This document shows, piece by piece, positions 1 to 8,711 of a stretch of DNA of 44,162 nucleotides. The notes beneath the pieces were generated by a model, which made no database searches, was not told where the DNA came from, and was given only the letters and a program-made list of their open reading frames with translations. Origin of the DNA: an uncultured Alphaproteobacteria bacterium (GTDB lineage Bacteria > Pseudomonadota > Alphaproteobacteria > RF32 > CAG-239); the NCBI GenBank assembly GCA_944391395.1, contig CALXTI010000002.1:64001-108162 (forward strand). The letters run 5' to 3'. The position numbers and the translations under genes are program-made. Positions within the stretch are counted from its first letter, which is position 1. Each line of letters starts with the position of its first letter.

Positions 1-1469
1 TAACGCTCCTGATGTTGTTTAATTAAGTTTTGCCGCAAATCATTTAAATTCTGCTCCAATCCTACGCCGTAAAGATGCGGGTTGGCAAGGCGTTTGTAGG
101 CTTTATCCAAACGGTTGAGGTTTTGCGTTGCCGTTGTTTGAATCTCGATTAAAGAACGGTTGATGTCATCGGCAATCACTTTGCCGTTTGCCATCACCGG
201 TTTTAAGAGGCTATAAGCTTCCTGATTCTGCGTAAACGCAACACGCTCGCCGGTGGTGCTGTTCAAACGCCATGAAGTGAGCGTGCGGGTTAGGCGTCCG
301 TCTTTAATTGGTTCATCGTTTTGTCGGGTGATGATATCGCCTTCAAACATGCCGTTTTTGACAATACGAATAACGTTTGTGGCGCCGGGAATGGTGGTTT
401 TGCCTTCGGCAATTTTGATTTTCGGCACGCCGTTATACTGTTTGGTTTTATAAACCCCGCCCAAAGCCGGCGTGTCATAAGCGGTTACCAGTTTGGTGCC
501 GGCGGCAAAGGCGTCATACGGCGCACGTTGCACTATGACAAGATTTTCTATCAAGTGCTCATCTAAATCGTTGGATGCCAATAGCTGAACATTGGGCATG
601 CCGGCGGCTTCCAACATGGCTTTTGCCTCTTTTGCCCAATAGGCCAAATCACCGGAATCTATGCGGATGCCCTGAAGTTCAATGCCGGTTTCCTGCGCGG
701 CGCGAATGGCGTTTTTAACACCTTGGCGGGTGTCATATGTATCTACCAATAAAATGGTATTGCCGACGGAGGCGCGCATATACGCTTTGAAAGCGTCAAG
801 CTCATCGGCATAGCTCATGACAAACGAGTGCGCCATGGTGCCTTTGGGCGGAATGCCGTAATATTGTGCCGCTTTAACGTTTGAAGTGCCGCAGCAGCCG
901 CCGATAAAAGCGGCGCGTGTGGGCAGAAAACAGCCGAAATCCTGCGCGCGGCGGAGGCCGAATTCCATTACCGGACGTTTGATTCCGTCGGCCGCGGCGG
1001 CAGTTACCATGCGGGAAGCTTTGGTGGCAATCAGGCTTTGGGCGTTAAACGCATTTAAAAAAGCCGATTCAATCATATCCACTTGCCAGCAGGGACCGCT
1101 GACGCTTAATACCGGTTCGTTGGGGAAAACAATTTCGCCTTCGGGAACGGCGCGGATGTCAAGCTGCAGGCGTTGTCCGTTTAAAAATTGCAGAAAGTCT
1201 TTGGCAAACAAACGGTTGCCGTCGCGGTTTTTTAATGATGCCAGATAGTCAATGTCTTCCGGTTTGATTTGCCAGTTTTCCGTCCATTGTAAAAATTCGC
1301 CCAAGCCGGCGCTTAAAAGATAACTGCCGCCGAATGGGCATTTACGGAAGAAGGCTTCGGAAGTTTTGGGTTCCAGATGTTTGCTATCTTTGAACCAGGA
1401 TTGAGCCATGGTCAGGTGGTATAAGTCACAGAAAAAAGGTGTTCCGGATTGTAAAATATCGTTTCTCAT
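1..1469 (-). CDS. pncB: Nicotinate phosphoribosyltransferase (left edge of window, 3' end cut or just reached)
   Basis: Converts nicotinate plus PRPP to nicotinate mononucleotide in the cytoplasm, the committing step of the Preiss-Handler NAD salvage route. The reading frame from ATG at 1469 stays open for 489 codons to base 3; the last two bases (TA on the coding strand) could begin a stop codon, so the gene may end at the window edge. Visible family motifs are LYHLTMAQSWF near residue 17, EFGLRRAQ near 160, and IRIDSGDLAYW and AGTKLVTAYDTPALGG in the second half, where the phosphoribosyltransferase barrel binds its substrate. Length fits the roughly 490-residue bacterial family. Its start overlaps the pncA stop by four bases (ATGA), so it is probably translationally coupled to pncA. 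Function is assigned from family motifs. Confidence 0.93.
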   Translation of the reverse strand, partial: MRNDILQSGTPFFCDLYHLTMAQSWFKDSKHLEPKTSEAFFRKCPFGGSYLLSAGLGEFLQWTENWQIKPEDIDYLASLKNRDGNRLFAKDFLQFLNGQRLQLDIRAVPEGEIVFPNEPVLSVSGPCWQVDMIESAFLNAFNAQSLIATKASRMVTAAAADGIKRPVMEFGLRRAQDFGCFLPTRAAFIGGCCGTSNVKAAQYYGIPPKGTMAHSFVMSYADELDAFKAYMRASVGNTILLVDTYDTRQGVKNAIRAAQETGIELQGIRIDSGDLAYWAKEAKAMLEAAGMPNVQLLASNDLDEHLIENLVIVQRAPYDAFAAGTKLVTAYDTPALGGVYKTKQYNGVPKIKIAEGKTTIPGATNVIRIVKNGMFEGDIITRQNDEPIKDGRLTRTLTSWRLNSTTGERVAFTQNQEAYSLLKPVMANGKVIADDINRSLIEIQTTATQNLNRLDKAYKRLANPHLYGVGLEQNLNDLRQNLIKQHQER

Positions 1470-2095
1470 TGGTCGTTCCTTTCACTAAAATGAACCAGGT
1501 TATGTTGTGTCTTTTTTTCTAAAAGGTAGGTGCGAAAAAACTGGGCGCTGGTGATACTGTGCAATTTGCCGGCGTTGATGAACGGGCGGTAAACTTCGTC
1601 GTTCAAGATGTCGCCGATTTGGCGGTTTAAGCCCAAACACAAGTCTTCCAAAATGCAGACTTCGGCACCGCGTTTGAGAAGGCCGTCCATGGCTTCTTTA
1701 ACGCACACGTCGCTTAATACGCCGCAAAGATAAACTTTTTTGTTTTGCCATTCGGTGCTTAAAATTGCGTAGTTGTGTTTTTCATGCCAGATGTTGGTGG
1801 TGCCCTTAAAGATTTTGATAAGTTCTATATTGTCCTTAAACGGCGCGGCCGATTGCCAGTCTTTGGTGCCGAAAATGCAATGCGGCGGATAAGATTTGGC
1901 CTCGTTGGTGTTGAGATAGGTTTCCAAAAAGTGCGTGTCATATGAATCTATGACGGCATCAAACATACCGCGCTGGAGATTGGCGGCGAACTTTTGATGA
2001 CGTTCAATCAAGTCCGGCGCGGCAACGGAAAGTTTCCCGTTCGGGTGAACGAAATCGTTTTGAAAATCTATCCGCATTAAGATACGGTTGTTCAT
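1466..2095 (-). CDS. pncA: Nicotinamidase (isochorismatase-like family)
   Basis: Hydrolyses nicotinamide to nicotinate, which the next gene (pncB) uses. The 209-residue protein has the expected catalytic triad: D10 in RIDFQNDF, K97 in IFKGTTN, and C131 in LSDVCV. Likely metal ligands are D53 and H55 (YDTHF) and H72 (PPHCIFGT). The frame extends 29 codons further upstream, but ATG 2095 is chosen because an AAGGG Shine-Dalgarno lies 8 nt before it and the N-terminus then starts at the first strand of the fold. A separate leader (2096-2201) carrying the same RNA element as the nadM leader lies between nadM and this gene, suggesting its own translational control. The stop overlaps the pncB start. 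Confidence 0.92.
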   Translation of the reverse strand: MNNRILMRIDFQNDFVHPNGKLSVAAPDLIERHQKFAANLQRGMFDAVIDSYDTHFLETYLNTNEAKSYPPHCIFGTKDWQSAAPFKDNIELIKIFKGTTNIWHEKHNYAILSTEWQNKKVYLCGVLSDVCVKEAMDGLLKRGAEVCILEDLCLGLNRQIGDILNDEVYRPFINAGKLHSITSAQFFRTYLLEKKTQHNLVHFSERNDQ

Positions 2096-2201
2096 GATAT
2101 TTTCCCTTTCAGGCTTATTTAAGGGTTGAAACGACCGCCTGTCTTTCATAAGCCCTGCGAAAGACGCAGACGGGCAGCGCATTGTGCGCTAAAATTAAAG
2201 A
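2096..2201 (-). promoter_or_regulatory. Candidate cis-regulatory RNA (riboswitch-like) in the pncA leader
   Basis: Read on the minus strand, this intercistronic leader contains a hairpin (2176-2190, 6-bp stem). It is followed by a 7-bp hairpin (2141-2147 with 2159-2165) whose 11-nt loop GCAGGGCTTAT (2148-2158) is identical to the one in the nadM leader. Downstream come CGTTTCAACCC and an ATAAGCC box (2112-2118) exactly complementary to seven loop bases. The Shine-Dalgarno AAGGG (2104-2108) can pair with CCCTT (2121-2125), while GCCTG (2110-2114) can pair with CAGGC (2137-2141). These pairings cannot all form together, which suggests a translational switch. The ligand is unknown; an NAD-pathway metabolite is the obvious guess. 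Confidence 0.6.
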
Positions 2202-2744
2202 TTAAATAATTGCTTTTTTCCGATAAAAGTAATCTTCAATGATGTGGCAATTTTCCGGATGCACAAAATTTTTCCAGCGTTCATCGCCGTATTTTATCAT
2301 GTCGCGAATCATGGAGCCGCTGACAAACGGAAAAGAAGGGTCGGTGCGATCCACCAGCTCAATATGTTTAAAACACTCCTTAAACCAATGGGCGTCGTAA
2401 GCACTGCCGGCATAATAGACATCGGGTTTTGGTAAATCCGGAAAAGTTTCGTTGATGAAATCCAAAACATATTCGCCCCATTCGGCGGGGTTGTTGATGT
2501 CAAACAGGCCGATGATTTTTAAGCGTTCATATTCCGGCCGGTGGCGGTAGACGTTTTGAATCATTTTTTTGCGGGTGGTGTAGTTAAACGGGTTGCGGGA
2601 TGTTCCCTGTTCCTGAATGGAACCCAAAATGATGGTGACGCGTTCGCATTCTTTTAACATACGGTCAATCAGCATGGCGTGTCCGATGTGAAAAGGCTGG
2701 GCCCGCATGATGCTTAAACCGTGACGATATTTGAAATCAGACAT
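2202..2744 (-). CDS. nadM: NadM/NadR-like nicotinamide-nucleotide adenylyltransferase
   Basis: Predicted cytoplasmic nucleotidyltransferase that joins NMN (or NaMN) to ATP, giving NAD or its deamido form. The 180-residue protein has the class signature PFHIGH (residues 17-22, the HxGH ATP-binding motif) and a C-terminal VSGSMIRD (141-148), which corresponds to the ISGTxIR phosphate-binding motif. It is a stand-alone adenylyltransferase without the ribosylnicotinamide kinase domain of NadR. The start at 2744 is fixed by an AAGGAG Shine-Dalgarno 8 nt upstream. It is the first gene of the nadM-pncA-pncB operon and has a structured leader. Whether it prefers NMN or NaMN cannot be read from the sequence. 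Confidence 0.85.
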   Translation of the reverse strand: MSDFKYRHGLSIMRAQPFHIGHAMLIDRMLKECERVTIILGSIQEQGTSRNPFNYTTRKKMIQNVYRHRPEYERLKIIGLFDINNPAEWGEYVLDFINETFPDLPKPDVYYAGSAYDAHWFKECFKHIELVDRTDPSFPFVSGSMIRDMIKYGDERWKNFVHPENCHIIEDYFYRKKAII

Positions 2745-2861
2745 TAAAAAAACTCCTTACAAAGGAGCCGGCATATAAAAAGGGTATAAAATTTTCCCTG
2801 ATTAAACAACCTGGCTCGGGTTAACGTCCTTGAGCTTATAAGCCCTGCAAGCTCCAAGAAC
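2745..2861 (-). promoter_or_regulatory. Candidate cis-regulatory RNA (riboswitch-like) in the nadM leader
   Basis: On the minus strand a 12-bp hairpin with one bulge (2826-2837 with 2849-2861) displays the same 11-nt loop GCAGGGCTTAT (2838-2848) as the pncA leader. CGTTAACCC and a GAGCC box (2813-2817) follow it. The Shine-Dalgarno AAGGAG (2753-2758) is perfectly complementary to CTCCTT (2762-2767), forming a 6-bp hairpin that would hide it. The competing pairing GAGCC-A-GG (2810-2817) with CCGGCTC (2765-2771) would free it. GAGCC can also pair with GGCTT in the hairpin loop. This is the layout of a translational riboswitch; no known class is recognised. Confidence 0.62.
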
Positions 2862-2900
2862 AATTTTAAGATATAATATTTGGAAAAAATGTCAAGCATA

Positions 2901-2942
2901 AAAAAACACCGCCTGCGTATAAACGTTCGGGCGGCGTTTAAA
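2901..2942 (-). terminator. Rho-independent terminator after trxB
   Basis: GCCGCC-type arms at 2906-2913 and 2930-2937 form a GC-rich stem followed on the minus strand by a T-run (2901-2906). It lies just after the trxB stop codon and before the nadM leader. Confidence 0.75.
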
Positions 2943-4048: not shown

Positions 4049-4083
4049 AAGGTACAAAATGTTTGTTTGTTAATGAGGTTGTT

Positions 4084-4512
4084 ATGCGTTATATATTGTT
4101 TTTGTTATTGATATGTGCGGCCTTACCGGTGCAGTCTCGTGTTATTGGGCGGCTTTCTGCCAACCGTTACGATGCCGATTCAACGGCAAATCCATACGGT
4201 GCCGGCAGCCGCTATGATGCAGACAGCATCAACAATCCGTACGGGAAATACGGCAGCCGTTACAGCAACACCTCGGCAAATAATCCGTATGCAACCGATG
4301 CGCCGAAACTATACGACAGCGAGGGAAATTACCGCGGTCGGCTTTCAGCCAACCGTTATGATCCGGATTCAATTTCCAATCCTTACGGCCGTTACGGAAG
4401 CAGGTATTCGCCCGACAGTATCAACAATCCTTACGGTGCCGGCAGCCGCTATGATGCAGACAGTCCGAACAATCCGTATGGGGATGGCTGGTATATCGTT
4501 GTTGATGATTGA
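4084..4512 (+). CDS. Small secreted NPYG-repeat protein, function unknown
   Basis: A 142-residue protein with a signal peptide (MRYILFLLLICAALPVQS, about 18 residues). The rest is almost wholly repeats of SRYDADSxNNPYG, in units of about 14-16 residues: RLSANRYDxDS opens two blocks and NPYG recurs six times. Composition is rich in Asn, Tyr, Gly, Ser and Asp with no cysteine, suggesting an exported, possibly metal-binding or calcium-dependent structure; that is inference. Similar NPYG repeat tracts exist in other bacterial secreted proteins of unknown role. A 32-base exact DNA repeat (4195-4226 and 4432-4463) shows recent duplication. ATG 4084 is chosen over the upstream ATG at 4063 because GAGG precedes it and the signal peptide then begins at residue 1. 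Confidence 0.75.
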   Translation: MRYILFLLLICAALPVQSRVIGRLSANRYDADSTANPYGAGSRYDADSINNPYGKYGSRYSNTSANNPYATDAPKLYDSEGNYRGRLSANRYDPDSISNPYGRYGSRYSPDSINNPYGAGSRYDADSPNNPYGDGWYIVVDD

Positions 4513-4815: not shown

Positions 4816-5994
<1,179 letters not shown>

Positions 5995-6032
5995 TTGCAA
6001 TCTTATATAGTTGTTTTTTAACGGAGATAACA

Positions 6033-7133
6033 ATGCAAAAATATAACTACGGTCGACAATCTATTGACAATGACGATATTGATGCTGTTCTTTCGGTATT
6101 GAAAAGCGATTATCTGACTTGCGGGCCGAAGATTAAAGAGTTTGAAAATGCCGTTTGCCAATATACCGGAGCAAAATATTGCGTGGCTGTGTCAAATGCT
6201 ACGGCAGGGCTGCATATTGCGGCTCTTGCTATAGGGTTACGGCCCGGAGATGAAGCGATAACATCGCCGATTACGTTTTTATCTTCAGCAAATTGTATGT
6301 GTTTTACCGGTGCGACTCCGACATTCGCGGATATTGACGAACAAACCGCCAATATTGATCCTGAAGAAATCAGGCGTAAAATCACAAGTAAAACCAAAGC
6401 AGTTATTCCTGTTCATTTTGCGGGACAAAGCTGTGATATGGCGAAAATTTATGACATCGCCAAACAAAATAATCTGTTTGTAATAGAAGACGCGGCTCAT
6501 GCCATCGGTTCGGAATACAAGGGAGATAAGGTCGGATCTTGTAGATATTCGGATATGACGGTGTTTTCGTTTCATCCGGTCAAAACCATCACGACCGGTG
6601 AAGGCGGCGCCGTTACGACAAACAGCAAAGAATTATACGATAAATTATGCGCATTACGGGCTCATGGCACGCATAAAGACGGTGAGATGCAAAACACATG
6701 GGAATATGAAATGCGCGAACTCGGGTATAATTATCGCATGACCGAGATGCAGGCGGCTCTAGGAATCAGTCAGCTGAAAAAAATTGACAAGTTTAAAAAG
6801 CGGCGGCGTGAAATTGTTGCTTTTTATAATAAGGAATTAAGGCTTCCTCATTTGATTGAGAAAGATTTTTCCGATGCCTGTTTTCATTTGTATCCGATAT
6901 TGGTGGAAAACAGACGGGATTTTTATTTTAAGGCCAAAGAAAAAGGGCTGAATTTGCAAGTGCATTATATTCCGGTACACACGCAGCCTTATTATGCCCG
7001 TTTCGGATATAAAAAGGGGGATTATCCTAAGGCGGAGGCGTATTATGAAAAATGTATTTCTCTGCCGTTGTATCCATCGTTAACAGATGAGGATTTGATG
7101 GAAATCGTCAGAAGAATAAAGGATATATTGTAA
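6033..7133 (+). CDS. pseC: UDP-4-amino-4,6-dideoxy-N-acetyl-beta-L-altrosamine transaminase, PseC
   Basis: PLP-dependent aminotransferase of the DegT/DnrJ/EryC1 family that aminates C4 of the PseB product. The 366-residue protein shows SDYLTCGPKIKEFE at the N-terminus, the aspartate motif EDAAHAIGS (D153) and the Schiff-base lysine K184 in FHPVKTITTGEGGAV. Length is normal. ATG 6033 is used rather than the upstream in-frame start at 5943 because GGAG precedes it and the upstream extension lies inside pseB. The stop overlaps the pseF start by one base. Confidence 0.92.
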   Translation: MQKYNYGRQSIDNDDIDAVLSVLKSDYLTCGPKIKEFENAVCQYTGAKYCVAVSNATAGLHIAALAIGLRPGDEAITSPITFLSSANCMCFTGATPTFADIDEQTANIDPEEIRRKITSKTKAVIPVHFAGQSCDMAKIYDIAKQNNLFVIEDAAHAIGSEYKGDKVGSCRYSDMTVFSFHPVKTITTGEGGAVTTNSKELYDKLCALRAHGTHKDGEMQNTWEYEMRELGYNYRMTEMQAALGISQLKKIDKFKKRRREIVAFYNKELRLPHLIEKDFSDACFHLYPILVENRRDFYFKAKEKGLNLQVHYIPVHTQPYYARFGYKKGDYPKAEAYYEKCISLPLYPSLTDEDLMEIVRRIKDIL

Positions 7134-7807
7134 TGTCATCGGCGGCAATAATAACGGCGCGCGGCGGAAGCAAGCGAATTCCACGCAAAAATATTAAGAA
7201 ATTTATGGGTAAGCCGATGTTGGTTTACGCAATAGATGCCGCGCTAAAATCAAATCTTTTTGACGAGGTCATGGTTTCAACCGATGATGCGGAAATTGCC
7301 TGCGTGGCCGAGCGGTACGGCGCAAAAGTTCCTTTTATGCGTTCTGATGCCATGGCCGGTGATTTTGCGACGACCAAAGATGTGTTGGCAGAGGTGATTA
7401 ACGAATATCAAAACAGAGGGCAAACTTTTGAAAATATTTGTTGTATCTATCCGTGCGTACCGTTTCTGACAGCGGAGGTGTTGCAAGATGCATTCAAAAA
7501 ATTTGTATCAACCGCAGCGGACAGATTGATCCCCGTGGTTAAATTTTCTTTTCCGATACAACGTGCTTTCAGGATAAACGATAAAGGGTATTTGGAATAT
7601 CGCGAACCTGAAAATGCCTCGAAACGTTCGCAAGATTTGGAACCTATGTATCATGATGCGGGGATGTTTTATTTTTATAAACAAAATAAATTAGAAAGTC
7701 CTAACATAATGTTCTACGAAATGAAAGAAGAAAATGTTCAAGATATTGACACGATGGAGGATTGGAAGTTGGCAGAACTCAAGTATAAAGTAAAGGAAAC
7801 GTTATAA
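7133..7807 (+). CDS. pseF: Pseudaminic acid cytidylyltransferase, PseF
   Basis: Activates the nonulosonic acid as its CMP derivative using CTP. The 224-residue protein begins with the CMP-sugar synthetase signature IITARGGSKRIPRKNIK and has PMLVYAIDAAL, STDDAEIA and the PMYHDAGMFYF block typical of PseF/NeuA. It follows pseC with a one-base overlap (TAATG) and is separated by one base from the next gene. The pairing with pseB and pseC supports pseudaminic rather than sialic acid as substrate. Confidence 0.9.
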   Translation: MSSAAIITARGGSKRIPRKNIKKFMGKPMLVYAIDAALKSNLFDEVMVSTDDAEIACVAERYGAKVPFMRSDAMAGDFATTKDVLAEVINEYQNRGQTFENICCIYPCVPFLTAEVLQDAFKKFVSTAADRLIPVVKFSFPIQRAFRINDKGYLEYREPENASKRSQDLEPMYHDAGMFYFYKQNKLESPNIMFYEMKEENVQDIDTMEDWKLAELKYKVKETL

Positions 7808-7808
7808 A

Positions 7809-8711
7809 ATGTTTATTAAAAGAGAACAATCTTGCGGCGTCGTAAAATATAAAATTTTCGGAAAAACGATATTTAAGCAGGGAAATAAACAAAAAGGACC
7901 TTACGGTATGCATTCCATATTGGAAGCGTATACCGGGATGAAAATAAACAGAAAAAAAGTCAGATTACAGCACGGATGGTCGCCTTTGGACGGTGCTTTT
8001 CCCAACGATTTGAAAAAAAAGACGAAAGTTGCTCTGGCTTGGAACAAACGTTATTGCAATGATTGGAATAAAAAAAGTGATGTTCCGTGCTATATTTGGG
8101 GTTCGCCTTTTATATATTACAGAAAGATGAACAATATCGTTCAAGATGCCGCGGCAAAAGGGACGATAGCCTATCCTTCGCATTCCACGGCGACCACGGA
8201 AGCACGGTTTGATATTGATGATTATTGCGCTCAATTAAAAGCCCTTCCCGATGAATTTCAACCCGTAACAATATCTTTGCACCCTATGGATATTGAACTC
8301 TATCATATGGATGAAGAATATGAAAAAAGAGGCTTTAAGACCGTTTGCGCCGGTTTGGATATGAAAAAACCGTTTTATGAACTTTTTTATGACAATCTGA
8401 AGAAATATAAATATTCCACCTCTAATGAGCCCGGTTCCTATACTTTTTATTCCGTGGAAATGGGAATTCCGTTTTTTATACTCGGACCCGTCGCTTCAAG
8501 TTGTGATACGAATAAAGCGGAAGAAAACCGCGAGCAACGTAACACGAAAATTACGGATTATCAATACGGTCAAATCGCTTATGATTTGTTTTCAAAATTT
8601 CCCAAAGGCATAATTACCGAAGAACAGAGGAATTTTGTTTTATCCGAAACAGGCGCAAACGATTGTGTTTCTAAGGATGAACTGATTAAAATCTTGGAAA
8701 AAATAAAATGA
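7809..8711 (+). CDS. Unknown glycosyltransferase-like protein in the pse operon
   Basis: A 300-residue soluble protein with no signal peptide or membrane segment. I do not recognise its exact family. The N-terminal RLQHGWSP and the C-terminal block EPGSYTFYSVEMGIPFFILGP resemble the two halves of GT-B-fold glycosyltransferases and UDP-sugar hydrolases, where a conserved Glu/Ser-containing loop binds the nucleotide diphosphate; this is inference from pattern. In the operon it sits where pseG might be expected, so it could be a transferase adding the nonulosonic acid to an acceptor, or a replacement for the missing UDP-sugar hydrolase. Its stop overlaps the next start (ATGA). Confidence 0.6.
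   Translation: MFIKREQSCGVVKYKIFGKTIFKQGNKQKGPYGMHSILEAYTGMKINRKKVRLQHGWSPLDGAFPNDLKKKTKVALAWNKRYCNDWNKKSDVPCYIWGSPFIYYRKMNNIVQDAAAKGTIAYPSHSTATTEARFDIDDYCAQLKALPDEFQPVTISLHPMDIELYHMDEEYEKRGFKTVCAGLDMKKPFYELFYDNLKKYKYSTSNEPGSYTFYSVEMGIPFFILGPVASSCDTNKAEENREQRNTKITDYQYGQIAYDLFSKFPKGIITEEQRNFVLSETGANDCVSKDELIKILEKIK

Follow-up and report, generated by a model that had tools for sequence, protein, structure and literature searches.

NAD is universal. The open literature covered here names only two classes of NAD-sensing riboswitch, each of narrow distribution (PMC7749635), and one more class with an architecture unlike theirs would back the view that RNA sensing of NAD is spread over many lineage-specific classes. 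NAD+-I (the nadA motif) is known only in Acidobacteria, and the placing of both classes in other lineages by a preliminary description of this DNA agrees with the literature (PMC7749635). Like the element described here, NAD+-I is a leader RNA of NAD biosynthesis genes, but the present family has no nadA gene, and no match was found to the 4227 Rfam models, tested as a whole set rather than with the nadA model singly. NAD+-II (the pnuC motif) is likewise a small pseudoknotted leader of a NAD-precursor gene, for which translational OFF control at the ribosome binding site has been proposed (PMC7749635, PMC10085692). It has, however, its own 5' pseudoknot strand outside P1a and an A5 strand forming a triplex with P1 (PMC10085692), whereas here the loop of a bulged hairpin serves as the pseudoknot strand and there is no A5 triplex strand; NAD+-II belongs to streptococcal pnuC, the present element to alphaproteobacterial nadM and pncA. 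The pntA motif, a weak riboswitch candidate, is also a candidate RNA near a NAD(P)-related gene with the Shine-Dalgarno (SD) sequence within a stem, but it occurs exclusively in Streptomyces, upstream of pntA, and no link to the present sequence was seen (PMC11109978).

Neither leader, nor any of 11 diverged loci, gave a gathering-score match in Rfam 15, in keeping with the preliminary description, which named no NAD riboswitch class with this loop; the best unthresholded match over the leaders was mir-2834 (E 6), a chance hit. In the SAM-II and preQ1 classes, small pseudoknots act as OFF switches: the loop of a hairpin forms base pairs with a strand 3' of it that adjoins or overlaps the SD. 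The present element would work in a like manner, but it differs in its two-hairpin loop-loop architecture, its loop and its gene context, and it matches no Rfam model. The open-access literature on nadM/pncA, NAD-III, NMN and nicotinamide riboswitches, to which the search was confined, yielded no description of the element.

The window, that is the whole stretch of 44,162 nucleotides analysed, comes from a genome of 1.48 Mb in 39 contigs whose nearest relatives are MAGs of uncultured gut Alphaproteobacteria. On its minus strand the operon runs from nadM through a pncA-like gene to pncB, and one element precedes nadM (element A) while the other lies in the gap between nadM and pncA (element B):

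2868-2895, minus strand: sigma-70-type promoter TTGACA-16-TATCTT (10/12 consensus), adjoining element A upstream
2826-2861, minus strand: hairpin P1 of element A (5' strand 2861-2849, loop L1 GCAGGGCTTAT 2848-2838, 3' strand 2837-2826)
2808-2822, minus strand: hairpin P3 of element A (AACC 2822-2819, loop with L1-complementary GAGCC 2817-2813, GGTT 2811-2808)
2202-2744, minus strand: nadM, nicotinamide/nicotinate-nucleotide adenylyltransferase family
2136-2172, minus strand: hairpin P1 of element B (5' strand 2172-2159, loop L1 GCAGGGCTTAT 2158-2148, 3' strand 2147-2136)
2104-2127, minus strand: hairpin P3 of element B (AACCCTT 2127-2121, loop with L1-complementary ATAAGCC 2118-2112, SD-containing AAGGG 2108-2104)
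1466-2095, minus strand: pncA-like gene, isochorismatase/nicotinamidase family
3-1469, minus strand: pncB, nicotinate phosphoribosyltransferase, third gene of the operon (PF17767, PF04095, PF17956)

Since the promoter immediately precedes element A, this element would form the 5' end of the mRNA; TTGACA is present at the equivalent spot in many relatives' nadM leaders. Further upstream, just 3' of trxB, a GC-rich hairpin with T7 (2905-2937, minus strand) is likely to be the terminator between trxB and the nadM operon.

The 11-nt loop GCAGGGCUUAU is common to both elements, while their base-paired stems are unrelated. The preliminary description was right to report the loop as identical in the two leaders: the minus-strand copies of GCAGGGCTTAT lie at 2848-2838 and 2158-2148, there is no third in the 1.48-Mb genome, and matches at one mismatch number 3 in the window against 0.51 expected. 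The stems, described there as 7 and 12 bp long, are instead both of about 12 bp with a bulge, which in the nadM copy of the window is a single G. Across the family, P1 comprises 5-6 bp, a 2-nt bulge N-G, 6 bp, a closing G-U and the 11-nt loop, for which comparison of the leaders gives the consensus G[C/A]AGGGCUUAU; dozens of genomes have the loop G[C/A]AGGGCTTAT, on differing stems, ahead of nadM, pncA or both, and it is invariant in most leaders. Folded singly, the window sequences have no more than a slight advantage over shuffled ones (z -1.0 and -1.7), so it is the comparison of leaders, where the evidence is strong, that carries the case for structure. When 30 nadM-type and 26 pncA-type leaders were aligned separately, 21 of the 24 P1 pairs proved to have changed on both sides (11/12 and 10/12, respectively), with 94% and 98% of P1 cells still paired, which bears out the earlier claim that the stems vary with pairing kept while the loop is conserved. 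This covariation is strong in both alignments, scoring 0.440 (nadM) and 0.485 (pncA) against 0.235 and 0.208 for shuffles, and none of 500 shuffles reached it, kinship being uncorrected. Sliding the P1 partners by 1-3 columns reduced pairing to 25-52%, and when partners were permuted among leaders the pairing was weaker 1000 times out of 1000 for every helix, including P3, the antiterminator and the terminator (again uncorrected for kinship). Even within one genome the nadM and pncA copies differ over most of P1, yet both pair. On nested alignments RNAalifold recovered P1 alone, since loop-loop pairs cannot be drawn by that program.

On the 3' side of P1 the consensus continues with a linker and a short P3 (AACC...GG, 3-5 bp). 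The loop of P3 has the sequence UGAGCC or AUAAGCC and forms base pairs with L1, the partner strand being AUAAGCC at pncA and GAGCC at nadM. The linker had been given as CGTTTCAACCC, of which AACC is conserved in relatives and CGTT is not. The AGCC box noted earlier as complementary to the loop is confirmed, and relatives show covariation between box and loop: one pair of the L1-P3 helix, otherwise U-A, is C-G in four of the pncA leaders, and paralogous leaders have the helix re-paired, with GACAGU/ACUGUC in place of GGCUUAU/AUAAGCC. The GGC/GCC core of this kissing helix is constant across the 30 nadM and 26 pncA aligned leaders, and part of the support for the helix comes from the paralogs. 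The P3 stem in turn appears in relatives' nadM leaders as AAAC/GTTT, GAAC/GTTC, AACT/AGTT and AGAG/CTCT. Since the partner strand in nadM leaders is the loop of this small covarying hairpin, the predicted topology is best represented by a pair of hairpins that touch loop to loop, so that of the H-type pseudoknot first proposed the loop-partner pairing is retained and the plain H-type form is replaced. Conserved unpaired bases are few (the 5' purines of the loop, the bulge G and the AA of AACC), and a ligand pocket is therefore not evident.

Two further features lie between element A and the nadM start codon:

2765-2771, minus strand: CCGGCTC, 3' half of an alternative antiterminator/antisequestor helix with GAGCC 2817-2813, paired in the minimum free energy fold
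2746-2769, minus strand: intrinsic-terminator-like hairpin GGCTCCTT-TGT-AAGGAGTT with a T run (2752-2746) right before the nadM ATG and the SD AAGGAG (2758-2753) inside

Across nadM leaders, GAGCC[G/A] is complementary not only to L1 but also to [C/T]GGCTC shortly upstream of the start codon. The two flanking bases, 3' of GAGCC and 5' of GGCTC, are associated, the combination being G/C in 36 leaders, A/T in 6, A/C in 5 and G/T in none (Fisher p 4e-5, kinship uncorrected), and the default minimum free energy fold of the window's nadM leader is this GAGCC:GGCTC state. The hairpin in the window scores as terminator-like, with 8 pairs and a T tail; relatives keep GGCTCCTT...AAGGAG with T7-8 and ATG after it, and the hairpin also hides the SD. 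In pncA leaders it is AACC[C/T] of P3 that pairs with the SD. At the level of sequence, then, each platform is mutually exclusive with the aptamer fold, as in riboswitches, GAGCC pairing with either L1 or GGCTC and the SD being held in P3, and both platforms would fit a switch turned OFF by a stable loop-loop fold. We propose that the folded loop-loop core is the binding site of a NAD-pathway metabolite, most likely NAD+ or NMN. At nadM, aptamer folding would capture GAGCC and leave CCGGCTC free, so that the GGCTCC...GGAG-T7 hairpin could form and would end transcription and/or hide the SD; without ligand, GAGCC would pair with GGCTC and nadM would be expressed. At pncA, folding would stabilise P3, whose 3' strand is the SD, and translation would be blocked.

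The search for further copies suggested in the preliminary description returned many matches upstream of nadM and pncA, within a narrow distribution. With the stem covariation and the lack of an Rfam match, all three checks that the preliminary description had named as able to refute it thus turned out in its favour. A covariance model built from nadM leaders alone finds the pncA leaders, and the reverse is also true. Strong matches to the nadM model were present in 54 of 152 family genomes (E at most 4.7e-12) and to the pncA model in 38 of 136 (E at most 4.2e-11), and the strong whole-genome matches are nadM and pncA leaders. The loci chosen around nadM or cofE hold 86 distinct loop-plus-stem matches, of which 85 are situated 5' of nadM (42), pncA (38) or a cofE-like gene (5). 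As expected of a riboswitch, a conserved covarying structure is thus found in the 5' untranslated regions of functionally linked genes. Outside the family the element was seen in one genome only, the termite-gut MAG G183 from another family of the same class; a phylum-wide scan of 398 genomes with model R1 matched the window's own genome alone, and the pooled model R3 added nothing in 385 genomes of the class, though weak relatives may be missed because these large scans used strict filters. The leaders of the more divergent family nadM genes (L018-L023, 59-65% identity) lack the element. Weak matches in family genomes G020, G005, G166, G138, G069, G019, G014, G108 and G100 are without the L1 loop and were judged chance, and those in other families (L146-L152) look like chance.

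NadA was found in none of the 136 family genomes scanned, with positive controls included, and QRPTase was not found in the window's own genome, so that NAD appears to come from salvage alone. Control of nadM-pncA-pncB by a sensor of NAD status would suit such a salvage-only supply, and since these bacteria lack NadA the element would govern the use of host or microbial niacin by gut Alphaproteobacteria.

A second operon, consisting of nadM2 and a cofE-like gene (PF01996, F420 ligase), is present in L082, L083, G055, G056, G058 and G059. Its L1-P3 helices are re-paired as GGACAGU/ACUGUC and GGGCAGU/ACUGCC: the loops of the cofE leaders are UAGGGACAGU with ACUGUC or UAGGGGCAGU with ACUGCC, the bulged stem, AACC and SD context being retained, and in the nadM2 leader the platform logic of nadM is rebuilt with GGCC. 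We know of no NAD role for the cofE-like gene, and its pairing with nadM2 could mean an unusual nicotinamide-type cofactor. In L082 (2860-4858) and L169-L172, nadM2 and the cofE-like gene each have their own re-paired version of the element.

It is near certain that the element is structured and cis-regulatory. From the sequence comparisons we infer that it is also a riboswitch, and we think it likely that each copy is the aptamer of a cis-acting OFF riboswitch which regulates NAD salvage and belongs to a new class; what is new is probably the class, the kind, a riboswitch, being already known. For the ligand, NAD+ or NMN is a first guess, the data not distinguishing the two, and another compound of the pathway may bind instead. 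By a narrower preference, we lean towards an independent third riboswitch class for NAD+ or a NAD precursor, with a kissing-loop core and two platforms in one operon (transcription terminator/SD at nadM, translational at pncA), and with a re-paired nadM2-cofE version whose ligand may be another, related compound of the nicotinamide type.

The leader RNA could be truly structured and yet be bound by a protein instead, either an autoregulating NAD enzyme or another RNA-binding regulator, that switches the same platforms. Autoregulation would also suit a motif that is small, conserves few unpaired bases and hardly occurs except before nadM and pncA, but the architecture is common to two differing platforms and a third, cofE-like gene, and mutually exclusive folds are typical of small OFF riboswitches, so that we regard control by a protein as rather unlikely. 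The invariance of the loop in most leaders would be expected if L1 were the seed-pairing site of a trans-acting small RNA. Such a partner would not, however, produce a complementary strand inside each leader that changes with L1, which makes this very improbable. Least credible is a DNA operator, for instance one for NrtR or another NAD repressor, or a repeat that arose by chance or duplication: although the nadM site sits just 3' of the promoter, the arms are free to vary with pairing kept and the centre is fixed, the reverse of what a palindromic operator would show, the second copy is flanked by co-directional genes of one operon, and the covariation of the folding platforms already contradicts it. 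An upstream-ORF attenuator was also rejected, the nadM leader having one 5-codon ATG ORF and the relatives' leaders no conserved ORF by eye.

Elsewhere in the window, a short, secreted-looking protein of degenerate repeats SRYDADSINNPYG without an NCBIfam match is encoded at 4063-4512 on the plus strand. It is followed on the same strand (4996-8711) by a cluster that, from translations alone, resembles one for pseudaminic/legionaminic-type sugar synthesis, with dehydratase-, aminotransferase- and CMP-sugar synthetase-like ORFs.
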